Part shown: piece by piece, positions 6,710 through 18,451 of the stretch
Numbering within the stretch: position 1 is the first letter of the stretch
Layout: every line of letters begins with the position of its first letter
Source of the DNA: Oscillatoriales cyanobacterium RM2_1_1
GTDB lineage: Bacteria; Cyanobacteriota; Cyanobacteriia; Cyanobacteriales; Microcoleaceae
Direction of reading: 5' to 3'
Assembly: GCA_012033335.1 (NCBI GenBank)
Contig: JAAURB010000053.1
Location: 1 to 36,320, forward strand
DNA: 36,320 nucleotides
Program-made: the position numbers and the translations under genes
Notes under the pieces: generated by a model
What the model saw: only the letters and a program-made list of their open reading frames with translations
Database searches by the model: none
What the model was told of the DNA's origin: nothing

Positions 6710-8962
6710 TTAGTTAATTTTTTGATCCACAGGTTTATTAAACTCAATCTGTTTATCCTGGGATTGCAATTGGGGGAGAGATTGCTGTGGAGCAGGAGCG
6801 CCAGGAGCCGCAGATCCCTCAGGGTAATTACTCTCAGGCTGGGTTGGGGTCGATTGAGGCGATTGGGGTTCCGGGGGGTATTCAACAGCCGGAGGAGCTA
6901 ACCAGGCTTCCCAATCTCGAATTTGCTCCTGGGCAGCATAGTAGGCGGAACTGCCATAGGGAATCCGTCTCAATGTGACGATCGCCCCTTCGACGTTGTA
7001 GGTGGACTGATCCAGACCGATCTGTAGCAATTCCTGACTCCACTCATCAATCAGTTGGTCTGCTTGACTACGCCAGGAACTCGAGAGCGAAACCCGAGAG
7101 GCCAACTGAATCGCTGTGGCCAAAGAATCAGCCGTACCATTGCTGGCTGTTTGCTCGGCATTCTGAATGTTCTGAATATCTTGAACCTGGGCCTGCCAGC
7201 GGCCAATATTGGTTTGGGCTTGATCGTACAGGACGATGCCGGGCTTGACCTGATTGGCAATGGCGATCGCCTGGGTGTATCGCCCTTCTGAAGCCAGTTG
7301 TTGGGCCTGATCCAGGAAGGGTTGGTATTCCAATCGCTGGCTCCGCTCTGACCATTCATTGATCCGGGCCCTAGCCTCCTGGTACAACGCTCGACCTTGA
7401 GAGATTTTCTGGGCATGGATGATCGCTTCCTTCAAAGAGGCGACATCTCCAAAGCTGGCCACCTGATCCGCCATTTCCAGATAGGGCATATCTTCAATCT
7501 CCTGAACTCGGCTGATCAGTCGAGCCGCCTCGGATTGAGCATCGGAACCGCGAGGATTAGTGGCGGGGACGGCCTGTAATTGGGCGGCAGCGAGCTTTAG
7601 ATCTCTGATTTCCCCAGACTGAGCTAGTTTCCGGGCCTTTTCAAGAATCCCAACATCGGAAATTTCTTGCTGCCAGTTGCCAATGTACCGTTGAGCCTTG
7701 AGATAGAAGGGGCGGTCTTTGCCAATCTTGCGCACCTGGGAAATGGCATCCCTCAGTCCAGCTACCGTATCTAAAGCCGCTGGGGCATGGGCTCGGGCAA
7801 TCAAGAGGAAATCCTCAACCTGCTCCTGAAGATTAGCTTGATTGGGAATTTGTCGGGCAATTCTGGAGGCTGACTGCCAGTCTCCTCCAGCTAGAGCATC
7901 TTCGGCAATTTTGAGCAAACCCTGACTGTATTTTGTGATCACCTGGGTTGCCCGGTCACGCAGATAGCTTTTTTGATCGATCTCTTGGGCCTTGGCGATC
8001 GCCTTGACCAGGTTCTCTTCCCCCCCTTGATCTGCCAGATCCTTAGCCGCAACTAGCTTGGCACTCTCCTCCCGAGTGATCTGGATTAAATCGGTCAGTT
8101 TGCGGTATTGGGTGGTTTCCCAGTATTGATTTCCCAGATTCAGCAGTTGGGTGGATTCCCGGAAGGCCAGGGTTGTTTCTTCCCGGCGCAGTCGGTTTTC
8201 AACTTTCTGGTAAATCGCTTCAGCCTTTTTCCATAGATCTTCCCAAGCCTTAACCTGAGCTTCTACCTGGTCATAGGCAGGGGTTCCCTGAGGAATTTTC
8301 CGAGCCCCCTGAACGGCTCCCGACAAATCTCCAGCCTGGAACAGTTCTTCGCTGATGATCAAAATATCCATTGACCATTGTTCGATTTGACGGTTAATTT
8401 CAGGCCGTAGGGGATGATCTTTGGGAAGCGCGTCCACCAATTGAATGGCTGATAGCAAGTCGTCTGCGGTCTGCTTATTGGCGGCGATCTCAGCACAGTA
8501 GAGCCGCAGAGACGCTGAGGCCACAGGCCAGAAAATCTTAGGGCAATTGGGTAGCGAGGGGGATTTGAGCAATAAGTTACTGGCGAGATAGCCAATCCCA
8601 GCGGGAGTCACCACCAGCAAGGCGACCCAGAGTGGGGCCAATCGCTTAATCAGCTTAATCGGCAATGGCTTAACCAGCTTAGATAATGGCGCAGGAACAA
8701 ACTCCGCCTGAATCAAAGTTGGAGCTGAAGCCTGGCTGTCCTGGGGATCTGTCAACGGTTCCGGCTGATCCTGAAGTCCATGATTTTCATGATTGAGGAG
8801 ATTCCTGAGTTCTTTGAGACGGTCAGTACGACTTTTGCGAGTGGAAAGACGCTTTGAATTTGAAGTTCTCGGATCTGAAGCTCTCGGATTTGAAGGCTCG
8901 GAATTTGGCAGAGGCAATGGTGCATCTGATAAATGACTCTGCCGATTGTGCTGTTTACTCAT
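6710..8962 (-). CDS. Membrane-anchored protein with about ten tandem helical repeats, uncharacterised
   Basis: A 750-residue protein. Residues 1-95 are polar and disordered, with Ser/Pro-rich runs and a basic patch (KRLSTRKSRTDRLKELRNLL). A single membrane helix follows at about 109-131 (APLWVALLVVTPAGIGYLAS). Most of the remainder, about 165-690, is around ten degenerate helical units of 45-65 residues with pattern AI..A..IP.....Y..AQ..I..W...L; examples are AVQGARKIPQGTPAYDQVEA, AIIHAQKISQGRALYQEARA and AIVTLRRIPYGSSAYYAAQE. The C-terminus is Pro/Gln/Ser-rich. One helix plus a soluble repeat array suggests a scaffold on one face of a membrane, resembling TPR or other alpha-solenoids. I do not recognise a named family. 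It stands alone, 171 bp upstream of the hslO stop. Confidence 0.75.
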   Translation of the reverse strand: MSKQHNRQSHLSDAPLPLPNSEPSNPRASDPRTSNSKRLSTRKSRTDRLKELRNLLNHENHGLQDQPEPLTDPQDSQASAPTLIQAEFVPAPLSKLVKPLPIKLIKRLAPLWVALLVVTPAGIGYLASNLLLKSPSLPNCPKIFWPVASASLRLYCAEIAANKQTADDLLSAIQLVDALPKDHPLRPEINRQIEQWSMDILIISEELFQAGDLSGAVQGARKIPQGTPAYDQVEAQVKAWEDLWKKAEAIYQKVENRLRREETTLAFRESTQLLNLGNQYWETTQYRKLTDLIQITREESAKLVAAKDLADQGGEENLVKAIAKAQEIDQKSYLRDRATQVITKYSQGLLKIAEDALAGGDWQSASRIARQIPNQANLQEQVEDFLLIARAHAPAALDTVAGLRDAISQVRKIGKDRPFYLKAQRYIGNWQQEISDVGILEKARKLAQSGEIRDLKLAAAQLQAVPATNPRGSDAQSEAARLISRVQEIEDMPYLEMADQVASFGDVASLKEAIIHAQKISQGRALYQEARARINEWSERSQRLEYQPFLDQAQQLASEGRYTQAIAIANQVKPGIVLYDQAQTNIGRWQAQVQDIQNIQNAEQTASNGTADSLATAIQLASRVSLSSSWRSQADQLIDEWSQELLQIGLDQSTYNVEGAIVTLRRIPYGSSAYYAAQEQIRDWEAWLAPPAVEYPPEPQSPQSTPTQPESNYPEGSAAPGAPAPQQSLPQLQSQDKQIEFNKPVDQKIN

Positions 8963-9133: not shown

Positions 9134-10068
9134 CTAAAACAAGATGGAAGCCTGCCGAACCCGAGGAGCGCTCCCTGTGTCCTGTTGAAGGTCTTTAATC
9201 AATTGATTGAGATGGTCAGGAGTCGCTTGATAGACCTCGCTGCAAAATTCACATTTGGCTTCTGCTCCCCCATCCGTAAGGATCATGTCCTGCAGTTCCT
9301 CGACTCCAAACAGTTTTAATGCTCCTAGCACCCGTTCTAGAGAACAGGAACACTGAAATCTCACCAGTTGAGTTTCGGGTAAGATTCGCAGGCCCATATC
9401 CCCAATCAGATGTTCAAAAATTTCAGGTAAGGTTTGACGCTGGCGTAATAGGGGAGTAAAGCCAGAGAGGGAGCCAATCCTTGACTCCAGGGTTCTCACC
9501 AGTTCCTCATCCGTTGCCGCCTTTGGCAATACCTGCAATAAAATTCCCCCCGCCGCCTGAACCCCCACCGAATCTACAAAAACCCCTAAAACCAGAGCAG
9601 ATGGGGTTTGTTCGGAGGTCACCAGGTAATGGGTTAAGTCGTCACCAATCTCCCCGGAAACCAGCTCAATTGTGCTGGAGTAAGGATAACCATACCCCAC
9701 ATCCCGCAGCACATAGAGAAAGCCCTCTGAACCTACGGCTCCGCCCACGTCTAGTTTGCCCAGGCGATTGGGGGGCAGCTCAATTTCTGGATTGTCCACA
9801 TAGCCTCGCACAGTTCCATCAAGACCCGCATCTACTAGTATTCGGCCTAGGGGGCCATTGCCTTTAATATTGATGTTGACCCGGGAGCCCGGCGCTTCAT
9901 GCTAGAGGCAAACAACAGTCCTGCGGCCATGGTACGGCCCAAAGCAGCAGTGGCAACCGCAGACAGACCGTGGCGTTGTCGAACTTCTTCTGTCAGGCGG
10001 GTGGTGATGACTCCAACCGCTCGAATACCATCATCGGATGCCGTTGCACGAATCAATTGATCAGCCAT
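9134..10068 (-). pseudogene. hslO: Hsp33 redox-regulated chaperone, with one-base frameshift
   Basis: The start [20 protein letters not shown] (ATG 10066-10068) is the standard cyanobacterial Hsp33 N-terminus; an in-frame ATG three codons earlier is less likely. The frame reads into [19 protein letters not shown] and stops at 9847. One frame over, the expected [20 protein letters not shown] and GLDGTVRGYVDNPEIELPP continue to the end. Restoring one C between Arg and Gly (plus-strand 9888-9893) gives about 311 residues, the normal length. The C-terminal zinc switch is intact: CSC near residue 240 and CEFC about 33 residues later. Hsp33 is a cytosolic holdase activated by oxidation. Either a sequencing error or a recent null mutation is possible; the rest of the gene shows no decay. 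Confidence 0.88.
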
Positions 10069-16323: not shown

Positions 16324-17715
16324 TCAATTCGTCAATAACCCATTTAATCCAACCCCTCGAATCTTCGCCCGGAGATACATCTGTCGGGGTGTCATCCGTT
16401 GATAGTCCTGAGATTCACTGCGCGCCCCGCGAAACCCCGCAAGTACCTGACGAACCTGGGGCTGATACCAGTTGCGAAAACTATTGCGCATAGCCCAGGA
16501 ACGAGTTGCCCAACTTCCCCCTTTGAGCACCCGATGCTCAGGGTCAAAATAGGTTTGGGAGTAGCCCGGATAGGGATAAGCCTGAAACCCTGGATATCCC
16601 TGGAAGCGGCTTTGAGTCCATTCCCAAACATTACCCAGGAGATCCTGTACCCCGTAGGCGCTAGCCCCTTGAGGACGAGCATCAACGGGGGTTGTCCGGG
16701 TCTGGTAATCCCTCACCCGGAACGTTTCAGGGATTGCACAGTTACAGTAGGAGCGGCTAGGCTGAGTTTCTCCCCAGGAGTAGGTTCTTTGGGTCTGGGT
16801 GTTTGATACCCAACTGGCGGCTTTTTCCCATTCTGCTTCCGTTGGTAGGCGTTTGCCCATGAAGTTACAGTAGGCTTCCGCCTCGTACCAGCTCACCCCA
16901 CAAACGGGATAATTGGCAAACTGCTCATCCCCTAACCAATAGCAAGGTTTGAGGATGGGATGGGGATTAGAGGCTTGTTGAAGCCACTGCCATCCGGCGG
17001 CTGACCACCATTGAGAATTTTGGTAGCCCCCTGCCTCCATGAATTGCCGATATTGGCCGCAGGTTACTGGATAGCGGTCAATCCAGTAGGTATCCAACTC
17101 CACCCGATGGCGGGGTTGTTCATTGTCCAGGGCAGTGATCAGATCACTGCCCTGGAAAAAGGCTCCGGCTGAAATTTGTACCATATCGTCCGATAAATTG
17201 GTAGCTGAAAAGACTGGGGTGAAAATGGGTGAAGTTTTCCTTTGATGTTGCTGTTGTAGGTGCAAGCCAAGGGCAATGGTTTCAGTGTGTTGACATTCAT
17301 GCTGGAGCACAAATCGCCATAATCGTTCCTGCTGATCGATAGGTGCTCGCTCCAGATAACGCCAGACCTGCTCCCTGACGGTCTCCAGGTATGTCCGTAC
17401 TGCTGCAATGGAGGGCAACTTGCCGCGCTCTGCCTTGGGCGAGCCATCCACTCGAAACAGTTCCTTGTACTCCGGAAACAAGGGTGGCAAACCAGCGGTG
17501 TACTCCAATAACCAATAGGCTTCGGTCAGGGCAATGTGTCCTAGATGCCAGCCAATGGGGCTGAAGTCAGGATGAAACTGGGTACAAAACGTTACCTCAT
17601 CCATGCCGTCAAACAGGTTCAGGGTTCCTAGACGGCACTGATATAGGGCTTGATAAAGCTGTTCCCTAGGGGAGTTTATGGAAGTGGATGTCACGGTCTT
17701 CTCCAACATGGACAA
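16324..17715 (-). CDS. egtB: Ergothioneine biosynthesis EgtB-type sulfoxide synthase
   Basis: A 463-residue two-domain enzyme. The N-terminal DinB-like domain holds the three-His iron site: His57 in GWHLGH and His139/His143 in HECQH. The C-terminal formylglycine-generating-enzyme-type (SUMF1) domain runs from about 170 to 455 (FFQGSDL, WIDRYPVTCGQYRQFMEAGG, CGVSWYEAEAYCNFMGKRLP, LLGNVWEWTQSRF, LKGGSWATRSW, FRGAR). EgtB joins a thiol donor to trimethylhistidine using O2, in the cytosol. Donor preference cannot be read here; the egtC neighbour fits gamma-glutamylcysteine chemistry. It overlaps the 3' end of egtC by 50 bp, and a GTG at 17694 is an alternative start still in overlap. No egtD methyltransferase is in the window. 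Confidence 0.88.
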   Translation of the reverse strand: MSMLEKTVTSTSINSPREQLYQALYQCRLGTLNLFDGMDEVTFCTQFHPDFSPIGWHLGHIALTEAYWLLEYTAGLPPLFPEYKELFRVDGSPKAERGKLPSIAAVRTYLETVREQVWRYLERAPIDQQERLWRFVLQHECQHTETIALGLHLQQQHQRKTSPIFTPVFSATNLSDDMVQISAGAFFQGSDLITALDNEQPRHRVELDTYWIDRYPVTCGQYRQFMEAGGYQNSQWWSAAGWQWLQQASNPHPILKPCYWLGDEQFANYPVCGVSWYEAEAYCNFMGKRLPTEAEWEKAASWVSNTQTQRTYSWGETQPSRSYCNCAIPETFRVRDYQTRTTPVDARPQGASAYGVQDLLGNVWEWTQSRFQGYPGFQAYPYPGYSQTYFDPEHRVLKGGSWATRSWAMRNSFRNWYQPQVRQVLAGFRGARSESQDYQRMTPRQMYLRAKIRGVGLNGLLTN

Positions 17716-18451
17716 TCGTCTGTTCAGGGCAAGGGTGCCACTCTCCAGGAAATAAGGGTTCTGAGGCGAAGATTACCGCATCTGGAAACTGAGGATCGTT
17801 TTTTAACCAATAAAGAGTGGGAGCTGTTCCAGAGAGGGCGAATCGACTGGCAACCATTTGCTGACCATCACTTATTAGTACCGTAGCCAGAACTTTAACC
17901 TGCTGTGCCAGCTCCGTTAGGGTTTTCAGGGTGGCCTCCAATACGTGCTCCAGGCTGGCAGAATTCCTGGAGGCTAGCTCCTGCAAAAACAGGCCAAAAA
18001 TATGCTCAGAATCAGTCGTTCCTTCAATTTTCTCATAGATCGGATTGCTCAGGCGATCGCGCATGGGACGATGCAGGGTTTGGCGGAACTGATCAATGTA
18101 GCCATTGTGGGTAAATAGCAGGTTCTCAGACTGAAAAGGTTGACAATTAACTAGGTTGACCGCTTGCCCAGGGGTGGCGCTGCGGACATAGGCTAGCATC
18201 CCGTTGGACTCAACGTAACGACTCAAGGGCGGTAAATTCTGGTCATTCCAGATTGGCGAGATGCTTCTATAGATAAAAGGTTGACTATGACGGGTGGGGT
18301 GATACCAACCCACTCCATAACCATCGGCGTTAAGTAAAGCTTCCTGCATTTCCAGGGGTTGGTAACTCTGAACAATCAGAGAATGCTTGGGTTTGTAGAG
18401 AATCTCTTCAAGCTGAATAGTAGGGCCAAGATAACCCAGCAAACGACACAT
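17666..18451 (-). CDS. egtC: Class II glutamine amidotransferase-like hydrolase EgtC
   Basis: A 261-residue protein beginning MCRLLGYLGP, so Cys2 becomes the N-terminal nucleophile once Met is removed. Other signatures of the Ntn/GATase II fold are NADGYGVGWYHP (41-52), NCQPFQ, LLFTHNGYIDQFRQ (the NG oxyanion pair), and GTTDSEHIFGLF. EgtC removes glutamate from gamma-glutamyl-hercynylcysteine sulfoxide in ergothioneine synthesis. The overlap with egtB immediately downstream supports that assignment over a generic amidotransferase such as YafJ. The SpoIIE-type gene lies 37 bp upstream on the same strand and may share the transcript. Confidence 0.87.
   Translation of the reverse strand: MCRLLGYLGPTIQLEEILYKPKHSLIVQSYQPLEMQEALLNADGYGVGWYHPTRHSQPFIYRSISPIWNDQNLPPLSRYVESNGMLAYVRSATPGQAVNLVNCQPFQSENLLFTHNGYIDQFRQTLHRPMRDRLSNPIYEKIEGTTDSEHIFGLFLQELASRNSASLEHVLEATLKTLTELAQQVKVLATVLISDGQQMVASRFALSGTAPTLYWLKNDPQFPDAVIFASEPLFPGEWHPCPEQTIVHVGEDRDIHFHKLP

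Follow-up and report, generated by a model that had tools for sequence, protein, structure and literature searches.

A TPR-like helical repeat protein on a single membrane anchor in cyanobacteria and its relatives among kinases and caspase-like proteins

Results

The locus and its products

The stretch analysed here (the window) comprises the 36,320 nucleotides of contig JAAURB010000053.1 from Oscillatoriales cyanobacterium RM2_1_1 (GenBank assembly GCA_012033335.1). It carries an open reading frame (ORF) for a 750-residue protein in which a single predicted transmembrane (TM) helix is followed by a long helical repeat (Table 1); we refer to this protein and its orthologues as family A. The span of the gene, 6710 to 8962, is exactly that given by an earlier reading made without database searches (the sequence-only reading), and the gene lies on the minus strand. 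The repeat defines a new family among the helical solenoids, a known kind of structure, and is matched at cutoff by no model of Pfam or NCBIfam. Sequence comparison indicates that it is a module common to at least four kinds of membrane protein.

Table 1. Features of the family A gene and its upstream neighbour (window coordinates; pLDDT, predicted local distance difference test score; AF2, AlphaFold2)
Feature	Position	Strand	Basis and remarks
Gene of the 750-residue membrane-anchored repeat protein (family A)	6710..8962	minus	ORF, ATG start, stop codon included
N-terminal tail, residues 1–101	8660..8962	minus	Mostly disordered (pLDDT <50 in 1–42 and 61–101); predicted cytoplasmic
Single TM helix, residues 109–131	8570..8638	minus	AF2 helix and hydropathy
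Cys140/Cys156 segment CPxIFWPxASASxRLYCA, residues 140–156	8495..8545	minus	Both Cys invariant in 27 of 27 orthologues
N-cap hairpin, residues 150–185	8408..8515	minus	Conservation; overlapping unit 154–200 recognised at 28.3 bits
Ten long–short helical hairpins and C-cap helix, residues 186–690	6893..8407	minus	AF2 model and unit profiles
Pro-rich C-terminal tail, residues 691–750	6713..6892	minus	Disordered (block pLDDT 42–55); unconserved (mean 0.73 bits)
hslO (Hsp33)	9134..10068	minus	Upstream neighbour, separated from the repeat gene by 171 bp; its 225-residue downstream piece matches Pfam HSP33 (E 4.4e-60)

Predicted structure and the repeat

A model of the protein was built by AF2 with 27 orthologues. 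The mean pLDDT is 81.2, with 474 of the 750 residues at 90 or above and values of about 90 or more over residues 190–690. Low values are found in both tails (approximately 1–101, which contains one helix at 45–60, and 703–750) and, to a lesser degree, in the TM helix and the linker that follows (block means 50–66 over 101–140). The TM helix is predicted at 109–131, where the sequence-only reading had put it, with modest confidence; the Kyte–Doolittle peak covers residues 100–118. After the TM helix, the model has a short helix (142–147), the N-cap hairpin (150–177), ten helix pairs (186–664) and the C-cap helix (674–688). Each hairpin consists of a long helix of 17–33 residues and a short helix of 8–13 residues, and the solenoid is continuous. 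Residues 420–690 modelled alone give a mean pLDDT of 95.0. The regular ten-fold α-solenoid on a single anchor that had been read from the sequence is thus seen in the predicted structure as ten hairpins with caps.

The repeat was assessed by scoring each unit of the window protein with a profile of the other units, taken from 26 other orthologues, and by comparing the scores with those of 2000 composition shuffles. Ten of the 11 units score 18.6–49.4 bits, higher than any of the 2000 shuffles (best 8.7–15.4 bits). Unit 251–302 is not recognised by the profile of the other units (−0.3 bits, reached by 1437 of 2000 shuffles); its sequence has diverged, though it forms a hairpin in the AF2 model. 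The repeat is not due to chance. By eye, the consensus of the unit is L..A..LA..G....L..AI..A..IP...P.Y..AQ..I..W, with 38–55 residues per unit. The near-invariant tryptophans of the sequence-only reading are borne out by nine that are invariant in the 27-row alignment (W196, W240, W244, W281, W430, W537, W589, W641 and W684). Several of the 52 extracted orthologues are near-identical, and 27 were included in this alignment (A1); orthologue L030 was omitted from a further alignment (A4). L030 has 52 extra residues, the size of one unit, within its repeats, and the repeat number can therefore change. The most conserved hairpin is the N-cap (mean 3.15 bits, with conservation of 90% or more in 13 of 36 columns). 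The membrane-proximal linker and the cap each average 3.15 bits, as compared to 2.34–2.86 for the other hairpins, a peak in keeping with a binding site close to the membrane.

Relation to known repeat families

With the window protein as query, no Pfam model exceeded its cutoff; the best at E ≤ 1 were ARM_TT21 (20.0 bits, cutoff 27) and RPN6_N (16.4 bits, cutoff 26.5). No NCBIfam model did so (best VpsP, 9.5 bits with a cutoff of 125), nor did searching the PDB by sequence bring a meaningful match (best E 0.22). At curated cutoffs, the family is as unrecognised as the sequence-only reading had it. Neither outcome that the reading had named as contrary to it, a confident assignment to an existing repeat family of known function or a model lacking a regular solenoid, came up. 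The same reading had set the repeat apart from HEAT repeats, and no Pfam HEAT model matches the window protein at E ≤ 1; the sole ARM-named model is the sub-cutoff ARM_TT21.

The relation to the tetratricopeptide repeat (TPR) is less simple. TPR is a 34-residue unit with the consensus W-L-G-Y-A-F-A-P. The window units do not follow this consensus, being longer and differing in key residues, with several position spacings alike by eye. The first helix appears lengthened, relative to TPR, by the Y..AQ..I..W segment, and the A/L-G-A-A-I-P spacing is kept. Over the 27 orthologues, models of the TPR clan match weakly (ARM_TT21 in 13 members, best E 3.8e-8; TPR_19 in five, TPR_2 in five, TPR_6 in three); surely unrelated Pfam models also match weakly (PLU-1 in 14, DUF1990 in 14). 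When aligned by hhalign with 11 overlapping TPR_12 stretches on four contigs of the same genome, a two-repeat profile scored 15.3, the highest of its 40 column shuffles reaching 13.7; the whole solenoid scored 17.1 on such stretches, as compared to 21.2 in column shuffles.

Comparison of structures gave a similar picture. BamD tops the VIA list (Z 9.0, root-mean-square deviation (rmsd) 8.4 over 171 residues), and such Z values are common among helical repeats. A search with residues 420–690 returned mostly designed repeats in its top rows (Z 8.5–9.6 over 54–103 residues), together with VPS35 (Z 8.6) and BamD (Z 7.2–8.2). Foldseek TM-scores are low throughout; the sole match at E ≤ 0.001 is a designed repeat protein, 7rdr_A (2.4e-5), and the weak matches include P58(IPK) (E 0.052) and PpiD–YfgM (E 0.27). 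The solenoid shares with TPR solenoids such as BamD, P58(IPK) and YfgM the stacked antiparallel helix hairpins and, by eye, the G-A-A-I-P spacing. It differs in unit length (38–55 residues against 34), in the conserved Trp with AQ..I..W and in the absence of a long low-rmsd superposition among the rows listed. A fair statement is that the solenoid is TPR-like with TPR membership unproven and the signs of kinship weak or mixed. The earlier remark that the repeat does not follow the TPR consensus therefore stands for the 34-residue consensus; it does not extend to the TPR-like spacing, with its extended first helix, or to the sub-cutoff matches of the TPR clan. Literature searches, with most subscription papers outside their reach, found no description of the repeat or of a cyanobacterial Hsp33 operon.

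Occurrence and paralogues

The phylogenetic survey suggested by the sequence-only reading was carried out at several depths. Homologues at E ≤ 1e-20 are present in 40 of 40 relatives, the window genome included, and homologues at E ≤ 1e-10 in 59 of 146 genomes drawn from the phylum. In a draw from the class, 102 of 145 genomes have a homologue (each best E ≤ 7e-44), family A and close paralogues being counted together. A match is absent from 43 genomes, namely 13 of genome family f30, eight of f42, 12 of f55, one of f57 and nine that lack KaiB (six of f50, one of f58 and two of f59). These are all the sampled members of those families, and the sampled genomes of every other family match; outside a few early-branching or small-genome families, no sampled class genome lacks the long protein. 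The nine KaiB-less genomes would be Gloeobacter and its kin, cyanobacteria without thylakoids; f30 is presumably the picocyanobacteria, and we take f42, f55 and f57 to be other early branches that bear thylakoids. The sequence-only reading had suggested a scaffold for an envelope or thylakoid complex. Absence of the gene from the nine KaiB-less genomes and from f30, f42, f55 and f57 argues against a general thylakoid component; the wider suggestion keeps its standing as a proposal, the thylakoid idea being neither shown nor excluded.

The repeat itself reaches further than the long gene. Its profile matches in 112 of the 145 class genomes, including six of the KaiB-less ones (G185, G197, G208, G228, G239 and G249). 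Four of these match at E ≤ 1e-9, G249 at 1.4e-9 and G239 at 1.7e-7. G219 and G258 gave no repeat match at E 0.001, and G267 is absent from the genomes with a repeat match. The presence of the repeat in KaiB-less genomes that lack the long gene suggests that the module is older than the gene. On this distribution of sequences, the long gene either appeared once the earliest branches of the class had split off or was lost in them.

A pattern scan of named genomes gave 491 matching stretches, of which 278 encode relatives; the best 80 were kept, and 79 of these are labelled cyanobacterial; the scan favours family A because only two peptide patterns were used. A 44% identical orthologue lies on a contig labelled as a Tatlockia sp. 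metagenome-assembled genome (L111), probably a mislabelled or mis-binned cyanobacterial contig. The viral contigs and plasmids searched contained no relative.

The window genome has a paralogue (B) of 770 residues, 30% identical over 109–648, which sits near genes for LptF/LptG, DUF3685 and a FUR regulator. Family B genes occur as side-by-side tandem pairs in several f23 and f27 genomes (L256, L257, L258, L260, L261 and L266). In the tree, family A forms a clade with its short relatives (support 0.94), and X_L263_12-1259 and two stray ORFs (L264:2957-4708 and L270:2097-3872) sit apart, so that no formal clade is given for family B.

The repeat in other membrane proteins

Four frames of the window genome contain the repeat at E ≤ 0.01: the family A gene, paralogue B, a 632-residue fusion with Lgt and a frame of 281 residues. 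This 281-residue frame corresponds to the 3' portion of a caspase-like gene that a frameshift has disrupted (L004/L006, contig C56). As the second frameshifted gene in this assembly (hslO is the other), it suggests that the assembly may hold indel errors. The sequence-only reading had taken the repeat as a family worth defining from one protein; the family holds, and it is not confined to one protein.

The Lgt fusion (L230:1953-3827, minus strand) has Lgt (PF01790, E 2.4e-82), a linker, an added TM helix and the repeats in one frame. Among the 49 class genomes compared, it occurs only in the window genome. As a general rule, such a fusion was rejected, because in the remaining 48 genomes the best Lgt frames are 280–339 residues long; longer Lgt frames are found outside the class (G079, 591 residues; G045, 423; G052, 388). 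Repeat proteins of 615–770 residues in other genomes, also considered as Lgt fusions, are caspase-like or kinase proteins.

The caspase-like relatives have an N-terminal catalytic-type domain, then a TM helix, then the repeats. Peptidase_C14 (PF00656) is over cutoff in all five full-length members scanned (L216, L218, L219, L221 and L227); the shorter repeat frames L222, L225 and L226 gave no Peptidase_C14 match. The His and Cys sites were placed by their usual motifs. Tyr (SGYG or QGYG) occupies the catalytic His site in 12 of 12 loci picked by eye, a count filtered on that motif, and the catalytic Cys site of these loci has Asn in eight, Ser in two and Gln in one, with Asn by eye in L228. 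By sequence, these relatives qualify as pseudo-orthocaspases, with Peptidase_C14 and without the His–Cys dyad.

The kinase relatives were recognised by Pkinase over cutoff in four of four scanned (L224, E 8.6e-34; L238, 4.5e-27; L240 and L272), and L241, L242, L243, L245 and L248 resemble kinases by eye. A TM helix lies between kinase and repeats in L224, L238, L241, L243 and L245. Repeats are located on both sides of the TM helix in L240 and before the second predicted TM helix in L248.

Further proteins also contain the repeat. Genomes that we take as Gloeobacter-like encode a TM protein of about 300 residues with one repeat pair and a conserved, distinct C-terminal part (L234, L235, L237, L239 and L244), for which the member scanned (L234) gave no Pfam match. 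L236, from a genome outside the class (G071; fragmented, 4% contamination), is a lipoprotein-like repeat protein with a lipobox by eye, and ARM_TT21 matches it over cutoff (40.1 bits).

The less expected result is thus that one repeat links kinases, dead caspase-like proteins and stand-alone scaffolds. Defining it joins proteins that are filed apart as hypothetical membrane proteins, TM kinases and TM pseudo-orthocaspases.

Topology and conserved cysteines

Hydropathy gives one TM helix in 50 of the 52 family A orthologues. Lys and Arg are commoner in the 15 residues before this helix than in those after it in 45 of the 52, with the reverse in three. These flanks suggest that the N-terminal tail is cytoplasmic. 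The Cys140/Cys156 pattern is found in 49 of the 52 orthologues, and in 48 of these 49 no Cys besides this pair occurs from the motif through to the C-terminal end. In family B, 20 of 21 ORFs fit the pattern (the count covered 23, including the repeat-less neighbours L264:2957-4708 and L270:2097-3872, which had been picked by length), and the pair are the only Cys after that in 19 of the 20; the remaining ORF, L270:253-2097, has C...LICA by eye. Two lone conserved Cys after a TM helix fit an oxidising compartment and a possible Cys140–Cys156 disulphide. Kinase domains work in the cytoplasm, and what follows the single TM helix of the kinase fusions should therefore be outside. The solenoid probably lies outside the cytoplasm, in the periplasm, the thylakoid lumen or both.

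The first ten or so residues resemble M.(E/D)R.IP..W in 28 of the 52 family A orthologues (for example, L052, L036 and L032); the window protein lacks this peptide. The peptide stands at the tip of a tail that is disordered and otherwise variable, and it may be a cytoplasmic docking motif.

Conserved neighbourhood of hslO

In the window, the hslO frame is split by a frameshift, as seen in the three-frame translation. The downstream part retains the CxC...CxxC motif, which we take to be the redox-switch cysteines of Hsp33. hslO directly precedes the repeat gene, in the same orientation, in 63 of 73 named loci (of the 80, three were dropped where the pattern did not match the gene and four for less than 1 kb of upstream sequence) and in 34 of 50 other loci (L001 and L007–L059; L028 and L044 were not extracted, and two of the 52 had less than 900 bp upstream). 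The two sets overlap in organisms (e.g., L007/L060). An earlier clustering found hslO on the same strand anywhere within the locus in 68 of 80. The adjacency occurs in more than one order, L037 and L038 being outside that of the window. The gap between hslO and the repeat gene is typically 160–170 nt, and promoter and terminator scans performed no better than on shuffles; for these reasons, an operon with hslO is not demonstrated.

Discussion

Fold, repeat, conservation, shared module and Hsp33 neighbour are given by structure prediction or sequence statistics. From these, we infer the side of the membrane, the disulphide and a binding role. The most economical reading of the order catalytic domain–TM–repeats, the Cys pair and the positive-inside flanks of the long families is an extracytoplasmic scaffold or sensor module, TPR-like and binding proteins or peptides, on a single-pass anchor; we consider this the best reading and hold it somewhat probable. 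After the TM helix, the repeat would equip Ser/Thr kinases and caspase-like pseudo-proteases with an envelope-side domain for sensing or docking, with the stand-alone families A and B as its long, scaffolding forms. Next to the membrane, the cap and its Cys pair would contact a membrane partner, and the solenoid arm would hold client or partner proteins.

Several observations weigh against this reading. No partner, ligand, localisation or phenotype was found for any member. The charge bias of the window protein is weak (two Lys/Arg before and one after the TM helix with hydropathy bounds, five and two by hand count with AF2 bounds). In single fusion proteins, it is mostly absent, slight or reversed (three and three in L216, L224, L238 and L243; one before and two after in L218). 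The hydropathy scan found no TM helix over threshold in kinases L242 and L272 or in L226. The Gloeobacter-like kinases L240 and L248 carry repeats before the TM helix, so that the repeat is usually but not always after it, nor always extracytoplasmic. Finally, Hsp33 is a cytosolic chaperone, and its conserved presence next to the gene does not point to a job outside the cytoplasm.

The arrangement in L240 and L248 would suit an inverted topology that puts the repeats on the cytoplasmic side, where those of ordinary TPR proteins are; the three family A orthologues with more Lys and Arg after the TM helix would suit it too. We regard such a cytoplasmic-side scaffold as improbable, given the 45 of 52 orthologues with the opposite bias, the conserved Cys pair and the TM-then-repeats order of five kinase fusions. 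An unlikely but somewhat better-placed alternative is a helper in envelope folding, that is, a membrane-tethered co-chaperone or translocon-associated scaffold (cf. YfgM–PpiD and TPR co-chaperones) that would hold exported or oxidised proteins and be linked to Hsp33. It would account for hslO lying just upstream in 63 of 73 and 34 of 50 loci and in more than one order, for P58(IPK) and PpiD–YfgM among the weak Foldseek matches and, as Lgt modifies exported lipoproteins, for the fusion of the repeat to Lgt in the window genome. However, the gap and the shuffle-level scans do not show an operon, 10 of the 73 named loci and 16 of the 50 others lack the adjacency, the Lgt fusion occurs in one of 49 class genomes only, and the fusions with kinase and caspase-like domains suggest signalling more than folding.

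The gene might also encode an already-studied thylakoid or contact-site protein under another name, such as AncM, the thylakoid–plasma membrane anchor of Synechocystis. AncM is described as a membrane anchor required for attaching thylakoids, and Synechococcus elongatus 7942 has a homologue, Q31MA1 (PMC13353191, PMC10708155). Absence of the family A gene from the nine Gloeobacter-like genomes would fit a protein of the thylakoid era, but f42, f55 and f57, which we take as thylakoid-bearing early branches, are also without it. Nothing links the two proteins, AncM being known here by description alone, and the chance of identity is small. The extracytoplasmic scaffold or sensor is thus retained. 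We extend it tentatively, and with more doubt than belief, to an envelope-sensing module: the kinases and the dead caspase-like proteins would read a common extracytoplasmic signal or partner, and the stand-alone A and B proteins would act as hub or competitor for that partner. If this were true, TM pseudo-orthocaspases would be transmembrane receptors.

Among proteins already described, the TM pseudo-orthocaspases are closest to the caspase-like relatives. Going by published descriptions, the substitutions are those of the class termed "cbMC alpha-TM, H-Y C-N" (PMC2853523) and of the YN type (PMC8283722). The alpha-TM class is said to have no other identifiable domain (PMC2853523); PMC8283722 counts 37 pseudo-orthocaspases with TM helices (YN example WP_010997820.1) and only ten accessory domains, two of them TPR, and the portion available does not tie a repeat to the TM type. 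PMC6426788 reports TPRs that follow the caspase domain in FS-class pseudo-orthocaspases from Rhizobiales, and treats the cyanobacterial YS class as well. The repeat gives the TM pseudo-orthocaspases a testable ectodomain. The window protein differs in having no caspase domain. It likewise shares its repeat with membrane-anchored cyanobacterial Ser/Thr kinases through the kinase–TM–repeat proteins and differs from them in lacking the kinase domain and having more repeats. A protein that binds the repeat would tell how cyanobacteria watch or build the periplasm or lumen.

The septal junction protein SepN of cyanobacteria crosses the membrane once and has its C-terminal part outside the cytoplasm; it is conserved in filamentous strains, and the text consulted mentions no repeats (PMC9722847). 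At 235 residues with TM 7–29, it is ruled out as the window protein (750 residues, TM 109–131). A "Chromosome segregation ATPase" of the Spirulina heat-stress proteome was also considered, and the part of the source available gave no link to family A (PMC2743650).

Other genes at the locus

The second frequent neighbour of the repeat gene is a divergent gene of 127 residues, present in 59 of 80 loci; the one member scanned had no Pfam match. Elsewhere in the window (16324–18451, minus strand), a DinB_2 and FGE-sulfatase protein adjoins a class-II glutamine amidotransferase, which we take to be the EgtB/EgtC arrangement of ergothioneine synthesis.

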